Assembly: GCA_012522855.1 (NCBI GenBank)
Contig: JAAYJQ010000023.1
Coordinates: 1 to 64,000 of the forward strand
Direction: 5' to 3'
Length of the DNA stretch: 64,000 nucleotides
Source of the DNA: Bacteroidales bacterium
GTDB lineage: Bacteria; Bacteroidota; Bacteroidia; Bacteroidales; UBA932
Shown: positions 242 to 58,724 of the stretch, one piece after another
How positions within the stretch are numbered: position 1 is the first letter of the stretch
Layout: the number at the start of each line of letters is the position of its first letter
Notes under the pieces: model-generated
Told to the model about the DNA's origin: nothing
The model's database searches: none
Seen by the model: only the letters and a program-made list of their open reading frames with translations
Translations under genes and position numbers: made by a program

Positions 242-348
242 CGTGACCATAACGTATTCATTAGTAATAAATTAAATATTTTCACCCTGGCCGAATCGAC
301 CAGGGTGATTTTATGCTATCGACTGATAATAAAACAATTCCGGTCACG
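242..348 (+). repeat. 107-nt palindromic element, copy 1 (left of transposase)
   Basis: CGTGACC 242-248, N33, TCACCC 282-287, N15, GGGTGA 303-308, N33 (ending TTCC), GGTCACG 342-348. Central stem TCACCCTGG/CCAGGGTGA is 9 bp perfect. Confidence 0.85.
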
Positions 349-466: not shown

Positions 467-1399
467 ATGCAGAAGAAGCGAAAGTTCAATCCAAGTGCAG
501 CCATCCACATCTACCAGAAAACCCTTGACGGAGCGGTTATCTTTTACACATTGTACGACCTGCTTGCGTACATCACCCGATTGTCCGTCAACGCTCGCAA
601 GTACGGCATCACGGTGCTGCTGATCTGTCCGATGTTCGACCATATTCACATCTTGACACTTCAGAAAACACTGGATCAATTATGCCGTTTCGTGGGGAGA
701 ACAACCTCGGAATTTGTCCTGGCATACAATGAAGACTGCGGACGGAAGGGGCCGTTGTTCAGTCCACGCTTCGGCAGTTCCATCAAAAAGATCGACAAGG
801 AAAAGCGCGCCTGCATTGCCTATCTCGCCAACAATGCTCCGGAAAAGAAATTGGTTGCCCGATGCGAGGACTACCGCTGGAATCTAATTGCCTACGCAAC
901 GTGCGATCATCCCTATTCAGACAAAATCGTGCTCAGAAAAGCCTCGCGACAGCTCCGGTCGAATCTGAATCAAGTGGACCGCTGTCTTGAAAGAGAAGAA
1001 CCGCTTGGTTACAAGCATTTGAAAAGGATGTTCAGGGGACTTGCGCGAAAAGAGCGAGAACAGCTGATCGACTACATCCTGAGCCGATATTCACCCATAG
1101 ACTACGATTTGCTGATCAGTTTCTATGGCAACTACCGAAATATGCTTGTGGCGATCAACGCCAACAATGGTCACGAATATGAGATCAAGGAGGAGTACAA
1201 TGTGGATTCGCACGAAGCCTACAAGGAGATGTTGCGTAAGGTGGCGGCACATGGGGGCGAAATCAAAGATGTCCTCACGATGTCGTTCGGACAGAAGATT
1301 GCATTGACGGGCGAACTATTGTGCGAGACCACTGCAACACCCGAGCAGGTCCGGAAGTTCCTCCACCTCAAGAAGGCCCCGGGCGATTTTCTTCCGTGA
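467..1399 (+). CDS. Y1 (HUH) tyrosine transposase, REP-associated/IS200-like family, 310 aa
   Basis: N-terminal Y1_Tnp-like region with the HUH motif (CPMFDHIHIL) and GRKGPLF..RFGSS...AYLANNAPEKK..., similar to Bacteroidales Y1 transposases; about 150 aa C-terminal extension. Confidence 0.8.
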   Translation: MQKKRKFNPSAAIHIYQKTLDGAVIFYTLYDLLAYITRLSVNARKYGITVLLICPMFDHIHILTLQKTLDQLCRFVGRTTSEFVLAYNEDCGRKGPLFSPRFGSSIKKIDKEKRACIAYLANNAPEKKLVARCEDYRWNLIAYATCDHPYSDKIVLRKASRQLRSNLNQVDRCLEREEPLGYKHLKRMFRGLARKEREQLIDYILSRYSPIDYDLLISFYGNYRNMLVAINANNGHEYEIKEEYNVDSHEAYKEMLRKVAAHGGEIKDVLTMSFGQKIALTGELLCETTATPEQVRKFLHLKKAPGDFLP

Positions 1400-56421: not shown

Positions 56422-57048
56422 TTATACCTCCAATGTTACATAAGAACCTTTGGCCCCAGGTACAGAGCCCTTCACGACGAGAAGATTGTTCTCAGGGATG
56501 ACCTTGACAACTTCCAGATTGGTCACCTTGACCCTTTCGTTGCCCATGTGACCGGCCATGCGTTTTCCGGGGAACACGCGGGAAGGCCACGAGGATGCGC
56601 CGATGGAACCGGGCTTGCGAAGCCGGTTGTGCTGTCCGTGGGTCGCTCCGCCGACTCCCCGAAAATGGTAGCGGTGAACAACGCCCTGAAAACCTTTACC
56701 TTTAGATGTACCGACCACATCTACGTACTTGACGTCGTCTTTAAAGACGTCGTCAACCGAGATGGTGTCTCCGAGTTTGATTTCCCCGTCGAAGTCTGCC
56801 GGAAATTCGACAATCTTTCGCTTGGGAGTGGTCCCTGCCTTTTTGAAATGCCCCAGAAGAGGCGCGCTGGTGTGTATCTCTTTTATTTCGTCATAGGCAA
56901 GCTGTACGGCGGCATAACCATCTTTTTCAACCGTACGCAATTGCGTGACAACACACGGACCAGCCTCGATGACGGTGCATGGAATGTTCTTTCCATCAGC
57001 ACCGAAAACGGAAGTCATTCCGATTTTCTTTCCAATTAATCCAGGCAT
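56422..57048 (-). CDS. rplC: 50S ribosomal protein L3
   Basis: [54 protein letters not shown]...[35 protein letters not shown]. Confidence 0.98.
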
Positions 57049-57193
57049 TGGTTTGTTAACTAATTGTTTATTAATGCTTTACGCTTTACCTCGCAAAATT
57101 GCGGGCTGCAAATATACCGATAATTTTCGGAATTAACAAAGTTTTCAACAACCTTCAACCCTTTGTCTGTCACATTCTTTATGAATATCCGCC

Positions 57194-57300
57194 CGTGACC
57201 CTATCTGCCACACTATCTGCCGGATGCTGTTTTTCACCCTCCCCCTATCGCCCGGGGTGAAAACAAGGATAACACTATCGTTTAACCATTTCCGGTCACG
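57194..57300 (+). repeat. 107-nt palindromic element, copy 3 (solitary, intergenic)
   Basis: CGTGACC 57194-57200, N33, TCACCC 57234-57239, N15, GGGTGA 57255-57260, N33 (ending TTCC), GGTCACG 57294-57300. Spacing identical to copies 1 and 2; central stem TTTTCACCC/GGGTGAAAA. Confidence 0.85.
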
Positions 57301-57616
57301 CATCACGCATCGCGTATCACGCCACCCATTAAAAACAACAGTGTTTTATGCCCTAACAATCAGCGCATTATAAATTTCAATGCGTCGGATTTTTGACTGA
57401 TTGAATTCAGTAACATATTTAATCACAATCGTTTGAATAATGCGGAATGAATATATCGCGCCACTGTCTCCACGAGGCGTTCGATGTCGCTACAGCCCGC
57501 ACTCATCCTGGCGAAACCGGAAAAATTCTCCCGGAATCTGTCCTTGCCGCCCCACCAAACCCGTTTGTTTAAATCGTTTATTATTACATCACTTGTTAGA
57601 CTAAACGCTGTGACTC

Positions 57617-57857: not shown

Positions 57858-58724
57858 ATGAATCTTTTGGCGTTGAATATATTCGGATTTCTGAACTTTT
57901 CGTTCACGGACATCATCGACATTTTGATGGTGACCGTAAGCATTTACTTGATTTTCAAATGGATCAAGGGGTCGGCCGCCATGAACATCTTCATCGCCAT
58001 CCTGATGCTCTTCGTGCTGCGCGTGGTCGTGACCGCCTTCAACATGAAACTGATGTCGGCTCTGCTCGGCACATTTCTGGATGTCGGCATGCTCGCCCTG
58101 ATCATTATCTTTCAACCGGAAATCCGGCACTTCCTGAATCGGTTCGGCTCCCGATACGGGGTCTCCGGCAAAAGAGGAACCTTCCTCAGCCGGATCCTCG
58201 GCATCAAAGAGACGCAACTCGGCAATGAAACCGTGAATGAATTGACCGAAGCCTGCCGGGCGATGTCGGAAAACAAGACCGGGGCGCTGATCGTCCTTCA
58301 GGGCAAGGAATCGCTCGACTTTATCGTCGAAACCGGAGACAAGGTAGATGCCGTGGTCCGCAGAAGGCTCATTATGAACATATTCTTCAAAAACTCCCCC
58401 CTCCACGACGGCGCCATGATCATCCGAGGCGACCGGATCGTGGCGGCTCGGTGCACCCTCCCGATCACGGAACGGAAGAATATTCCCGCGAGATACGGGA
58501 TGCGGCACAAGGCAGCGATCGGCATTTCGGAAGAAACGGACGCGCAAGTAATTGTTGTGTCGGAACAGACGGGGAACATTTCTTTCGTCAAGAACGGCGT
58601 CCTGACCCGGATCGGGAACATCAACGAACTGAAGATTCTGCTCGGCGCAGCCGTGGACAAGCCGAAGGCGCACGTTGAGGAAGCGAAGCCGAAGAATCCT
58701 AAAAAAACCAATGCCGCGAAGTGA
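57858..58724 (+). CDS. dacA: Diadenylate cyclase (c-di-AMP synthase, CdaA/DacA type)
   Basis: Three TM N-term, then GALIVLQGKESLDFIVETGDKVDAVVRRRLIMNIFFKNSPLHDGAMIIRGDRIVAARCTLPITERKNIPARYGMRHKAAIGISEETDAQVIVVSEQTGNIS: DGA and RHR-type motifs. Confidence 0.96.
   Translation: MNLLALNIFGFLNFSFTDIIDILMVTVSIYLIFKWIKGSAAMNIFIAILMLFVLRVVVTAFNMKLMSALLGTFLDVGMLALIIIFQPEIRHFLNRFGSRYGVSGKRGTFLSRILGIKETQLGNETVNELTEACRAMSENKTGALIVLQGKESLDFIVETGDKVDAVVRRRLIMNIFFKNSPLHDGAMIIRGDRIVAARCTLPITERKNIPARYGMRHKAAIGISEETDAQVIVVSEQTGNISFVKNGVLTRIGNINELKILLGAAVDKPKAHVEEAKPKNPKKTNAAK

Follow-up and report, generated by a model that had tools for sequence, protein, structure and literature searches.

REP-associated tyrosine transposases (RAYTs) are usually described together with GTAG-tagged REPs. 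Bertels and Rainey modelled REPINs as inverted pairs of REPs with a length-constrained interior (PMC3116915), and known REPs have also taken on host roles (PMC6006769). Quentin et al. noted 'atypical secondary structures' beside Bacteroidetes genes of subclass 2.6 (PMC6006769), and Di Nocera et al. described RAYT-like genes flanked by TIRs, not all of which carry the motif GGGGWSAS (PMC3733652). In the open-licence papers that we searched, we found no description of the class of element reported below.

The element under study (57194-57300) lies in a 64-kb stretch of DNA, the window (C26:1-64000), from a gut-type Bacteroidales genome of 2.64 Mb (G000). Judging from its sequence, we consider it probable that this element is a non-autonomous, REPIN-like palindromic mobile element and the cognate substrate of a RAYT encoded at 467-1399. 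This neighbouring single-strand-DNA transposase most likely scatters the copies of the element around the genome, and in related genomes the blueprint recurs in many parallel families that differ in their ends, each beside its own transposase. As in the REPIN/RAYT (TnpA_REP) systems of Pseudomonas and Enterobacteria, a pair of inverted palindromic half-elements of ~100 nt is dispersed over intergenic sites (PMC3116915, PMC6006769), a non-duplicated gene for an HUH/Tyr transposase is flanked by the element, each transposase has its own element family, and the interior is mainly constrained in length. The copies are multiple, dispersed and mainly extragenic, their inverted halves are predicted to form a hairpin when single-stranded, and the RAYT is flanked by its own family. 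Unlike REPINs, the present elements have no GT[AG]G guide where the hairpin starts (their ends are CGTGACC in family I and GTGGAGG, CTGGTC, GTTTTT etc. in others), their outer stem and inner stem-loop are strictly conserved, and their arms contain a constant palindrome, common to all families, without compensatory pairing. With TnpA_REP subclass 2.6 (Bertels group 5) they share the occurrence in Bacteroidetes, the lack of GTAG and the unusual recurrent structures that flank the gene (PMC6006769). They also resemble TIRYTs/TIRtrons, mostly of subclass 2.1, in which long inverted repeats, some doubly palindromic, flank RAYT-like genes and make up moderately abundant families (PMC3733652), except that GGGGWSAS is missing from the family I stems and that the constant arm palindrome is undescribed in that work (PMC3733652).

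The element is recognised by the spaced motif CGTGACC-33-TCACCC-15-GGGTGA-33-GGTCACG, which has three exact occurrences in the window, at 242, 1395 and 57194; the 33/15/33 spacing given for 57194 in an initial annotation was exact. Given such short motifs, and arms without visible likeness, one might ask whether the spacing arose by chance, but the probability of this is negligible: base composition predicts 3e-11 occurrences per 64 kb, and 200 Markov shuffles returned no match even for a relaxed half pattern. The initial annotation had named chance expectation under shuffling as what would overturn its reading. Genome-wide, GTGACC-N25..45-TCACCC-N8..30-GGGTGA gave 26 strand matches, as opposed to 0 with a reversed control, and the copies have an arm consensus in common. 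The features of the locus are collected in Table 1.

Table 1. Features of the window and of the six element families of genome G000 (positions without a contig name refer to the window).
Feature	Position	Strand	Remarks
Family I copy 1, upstream of RAYT gene	242..348	.	R1 59.2 bits; outside R1 training set
RAYT gene (Y1/HUH transposase, 310 aa; HUH H59-I-H61, Y119)	467..1399	+	NCBIfam REP_Tyr_transpos 3.6e-6
Family I copy 2, overlaps RAYT stop codon	1395..1501	.	R1 48.7 bits
rplC (ribosomal protein L3, presumed), one side of element	56422..57048	-	Orthologues in 29/37 genomes
Putative rplC promoter (TTTG, 20 nt, TATATTTG)	57109..57140	-	By eye
Family I element under study, 107 nt	57194..57300	.	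Exact spaced motif; both arms fit arm consensus
Outer stem, left half CGTGACC	57194..57200	+	Pairs with 57294-57300
Left arm, 'beta' type	57201..57230	+	Common to C23:383, C23:168996, C27:10321, C27:18707; 63-83% identity
Inner stem, left half TTTTCACCC	57231..57239	+	Pairs with 57255-57263
Inner-stem loop, 15 nt	57240..57254	+	Differs from copy to copy
Inner stem, right half GGGTGAAAA	57255..57263	+	Partner of 57231..57239
Right arm, common 'alpha' type	57264..57293	+	Arm consensus score 13.2 bits
Outer stem, right half GGTCACG	57294..57300	+	Partner of 57194..57200
Second element, degenerate, family V (inner stem TTCAATCGGTC...)	57343..57443	.	R1 24.5 bits, E 0.037, weak alone
cdaA (DAC domain), divergent, other side of element	57858..58724	+	Pfam DAC 7.8e-43, CdaA_N 7.7e-18
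Family I, CGTGACC/TTTTCACCC	RAYT C26:467		
Family II, inner CCCTAGGG	RAYT C32:29768		
Family III, inner CCCGGGC	RAYT C6:29085		
Family IV, GTGGAGG	RAYTs C21:38849, C29:141526		
Family V, inner TTCAATCGGTC	RAYT C4:106364		
Family VI, GCGATGT	RAYT C6:24743		

Copy counts were obtained by pattern searches. The half pattern CGTGACC-N30-TTTTCACCC has ~30 sites in G000 at ≤2 mismatches, and allowing ≤3 brings in further degenerate copies. Family I comprises ~15 copies in all. Of these, 14 are well formed, although C7:18241 is damaged at its right end; C23:146354 is a degenerate copy, and only half an element is left at C25:12308. The left outer-stem half is kept throughout the well-formed copies, bar a few single mismatches. 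The exact family I pattern is absent from all 36 other genomes of the genus that we searched. The initial annotation had called the arms of the 57194 copy largely different from those of copies 1 and 2; they are indeed unlike by eye, but do not vary freely, as both fit a genus-wide consensus in fixed register (for the left arm 5.0 bits, compared with -21.7 for its shuffles). Likewise, its count of 20/33 matches to copy 2 is exact as a figure, but random pairs of family arms average 15.4 ± 4.0 of 33, and the closest kin of the 57194 copy are not copies 1 and 2 but the four that share its left arm type (Table 1). The z score of the predicted fold energy is ~-3.9 for copies 1 and 2 and only -1.3 for the 57194 copy, which is itself missed by the covariance model R1 (see below) that finds the other two in the window.

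The element stands between a gene that we take from sequence knowledge to be rplC and the divergent cdaA. Upstream of rplC we noted a promoter-like sequence, with an equivalent in most relatives; the element is ~54 nt further upstream and, being upstream of this putative promoter, would lie outside the mRNA leader. Its place in the rplC-cdaA intergenic region could mean that it belongs to a promoter element or leader conserved in the S10/rplC operon; the initial annotation had recognised a conserved leader as fatal to its own reading. We regard this as extremely unlikely: 15 relatives retain the promoter-like sequence and have no significant element upstream of rplC, where the best R1 scores (~25 bits) fall in AT-rich leader DNA, the other copies have unrelated neighbours, and Rfam has no match in the window. 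The rplC-cdaA intergenic DNA of the relatives is too diverged for base-by-base alignment with the 57194 site. The copy had also been called solitary, which it is not, because of the other genomic copies and because a second element, homologous to the family V elements, begins 42 nt away. The cognate RAYT of this second element is probably that at C4:106364, and families I and V stand side by side at three places in G000, namely in the window and twice on contig C23. Directly after the 57194 element (57301-57330) there are short imperfect ATCACGC repeats.

Only 6 of 37 elements in G000 lie inside ORFs of ≥120 aa, compared with 72% of random positions. The genome-wide count and context that the initial annotation had put forward as a check returned ~15 mostly intergenic copies, and this favours its reading of a non-autonomous element dispersed in trans, with sequence turnover and a retained architecture; the element-flanked cognate RAYT and the parallel pairs across the genus favour it as well. 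Dispersal is further supported by the copies C7:864 and C8:46537, which are 88.5% identical over 122 nt in flanks that are otherwise unrelated. In two family I copies (L002 864-985, L004 1485-1606) the homology runs 16 nt past one outer end (CTATCCCGAATTCCGG), and the mobilised unit may sometimes be larger than the element bounded by the stems. A candidate insertion into a 437-aa ORF at C21:28866 was rejected, as the 'homologues' of this ORF carry many stops and it is therefore probably antisense.

By its sequence features, the ORF between copies 1 and 2 is a divergent RAYT and not the transposase of an ordinary IS. It has the HUH motif and the catalytic Tyr in a Y1 domain, and H59, H61 and Y119 are invariant in an alignment of 23 homologues, all of which match NCBIfam REP_Tyr_transpos (the window RAYT with a score of 26.9, below the curated cut-off of 80). 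This model fits better than the IS200 model, which is matched by 4/23; Pfam Y1_Tnp is matched by 20/23 of the alignment members and weakly, with 13 bits, by the window RAYT. A PDB profile search with the window RAYT returned ISDra2 TnpA (E 0.003) and TnpA_REP 4er8 (0.88), and an AlphaFold model made from two sequences has a pLDDT of 48. In the alignment, F stands in place of the W of known TnpA_REPs, the HUH-to-Tyr distance is ~60 aa, and there is a Y--NNP motif. Subclass 2.6, in contrast, is described with W[QE] and a distance of ~82 aa (PMC6006769); the present RAYTs are ~300 aa long, and this published description sets them apart from it. Since neither the GTAG guide nor the subclass 2.6 protein features that we tested are found here, we file the elements as a variant within the RAYT/REPIN kind.

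Eight close homologues of the window RAYT are present in G000, at 34-100% identity, the best other copy being 50% identical, and the genome contains no near-identical duplicate of the gene, which fits RAYTs and not an active IS. Although Y1/HUH chemistry and subterminal palindromes are shared with IS200/IS605, the window RAYT gene has not been duplicated together with its ends. That RAYT genes of the genus have the same element on both sides would also be expected if copies 1 and 2 were the ends of an autonomous IS200-like transposon and the third copy a solo end left by deletion. We consider this quite improbable, as the other RAYTs of G000 (34-50% identical to that of the window) each have their own element, no near-identical copy of the whole unit exists in G000, and ~13/15 family I copies lie away from any RAYT, with both halves intact in nearly all.

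The pairing of RAYT and element is seen throughout the genus. The RAYT genes of other genomes are flanked by elements of 103-108 nt with stems in the same places and of unrelated sequence. In an alignment of 23 elements from other genomes, with the window family left out, 17 stem pairs were paired in 94.9% of cells as compared with 46.9% after shuffling, and covariation was 1.137 as compared with 0.211; this set was picked for having stems, so that the test is partly circular, but for copies 1 and 2 it is independent. R1, trained on other genomes only, recovered these two copies at 59 and 49 bits. It found elements, often dozens each, in 28 of 37 genomes of the genus, whereas 24 genomes from other families gave 0. 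Within 400 bp of the 45 RAYT loci of the genus, an element was present in 38 cases (on both sides in 24, on one side in 14, on neither in the remaining 7). The upstream and downstream elements of the same RAYT have far more stem sequence in common than those of different RAYTs (longest common substring 13.1 vs 5.4 for the inner stem and 6.7 vs 3.4 for the outer; permutation p 1e-4). Each RAYT has outer and inner stems of its own, in which covariation is almost perfect. Grouped by stem sequence, the R1 matches of G000 fall into the six families of Table 1, and every family has copies next to one or more RAYTs of its own.

The arms are constrained as well. Their consensus, common to all families of the genus, is an imperfect palindrome, G[TG]AA-N4-YTGA-N3-TCAR-N4-WT. 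A profile from other genomes scores the family I arms at 11.4 bits in register, and a shift of 1-5 bases lowers this to between -10 and -26. Because family I halves took part in optimising its anchors, the test is mildly circular, but this does not account for so exact a register. Each of the 30 family I arms that we tested, both arms of the 57194 copy among them, fits in exact register and beats nearly all of its own shuffles. Pairing between the halves of the palindrome is no higher than column composition predicts, which points to conservation of sequence, as for a protein site, and not of structure. Arm hairpins were set aside, with an energy z of ~0 in family I and no covariation across the genus; in the beta-arm lineage alone, one pair has changed from T-A to A-T, which is a single event. 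Pairing of arm with arm was likewise set aside (63 vs 59% in shuffles, explained in part by extended inner stems), and a guide/target arrangement of GTGA with TCAC within each half was dropped because it holds for family I and partly for family IV, and fails in the other families.

Constraint of this kind might also be imposed by the host. In genome G005, 18 copies of one family (L221-L240) are all exactly 105 nt long, without an indel, and their mean identity is 95% in the inner stem, 79% in the outer stem and 60% in the arms. Such a pattern, together with the intergenic placement and the fixed arm consensus, could come from binding sites or structured regulatory DNA or RNA (an operator, an attenuator, an mRNA stabiliser) that the host maintains, with a domesticated RAYT and immobile copies selected locus by locus. 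We consider this unlikely, but less so than the alternatives above, as the genes next to G000 elements and their orientations vary (tandem 17, convergent 7, divergent 6), families differ between species of the genus, no other genome of the genus has the family I pattern, and the region upstream of rplC is without a significant element in the relatives. The G005 family also includes a tandem array with 134-nt spacing beside a RAYT.

Returning to a RAYT-mobilised element, we start from what is observed, namely the architecture and number of the copies, their pairing with cognate RAYTs, the consensus of the arms and the intergenic bias, and from there we infer folding, cleavage, use of the arms as a second site and reinsertion. 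Where the locus becomes single-stranded, for instance as lagging-strand template, the strand would fold by its outer and inner stems. The HUH/Tyr domain of the RAYT would then recognise the family-specific stems and cleave at the element ends, while the constant arms would provide a second recognition site, which the long C-terminal region of the RAYT may read. The excised strand would be joined in again at another intergenic place. Once a copy had lost its stems, spacing or arm positions, it would no longer be mobilisable and would decay, and the other arm positions would drift, which would explain an exact length with variable arms. Counting against mobility, we saw no excised or circular form, empty site or recent insertion, and the arms of family I copies are only 43% identical on average, a high divergence for recently moved copies. 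Counting against a RAYT-driven process, R1 finds at least 32 elements in genome G030 of the same genus (97% complete), and even a profile search found no RAYT homologue there; its elements are apparently without a transposase or are served by one too diverged to detect.

A further proposal, which we put forward tentatively and would not yet favour, is that these systems form a distinct RAYT/REPIN class with bipartite recognition, in which a constant palindromic arm site would be read by a C-terminal region conserved throughout the genus and interchangeable outer and inner stems would choose the RAYT, with six or more orthogonal pairs working within a single genome. Since this one Bacteroidales genus offers more than 20 RAYT/element families, comparison alone is enough to separate what is specific in the DNA substrate from what is constant. 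One can then ask how co-evolution proceeds between a domesticated single-strand transposase and its non-autonomous elements, and how specificity is kept when several pairs share one cell. In addition, R1 offers an annotation handle for a class of repeat that Rfam does not detect in the window. Lastly, at L079 (G000:C29:27000-30800), a locus without an R1 match, the paralogue most similar to the window RAYT (50%) has a short, near-perfect palindrome (CCCTGACAAAGGTGGCACC...) on either side, possibly an arm-less derivative of the element.
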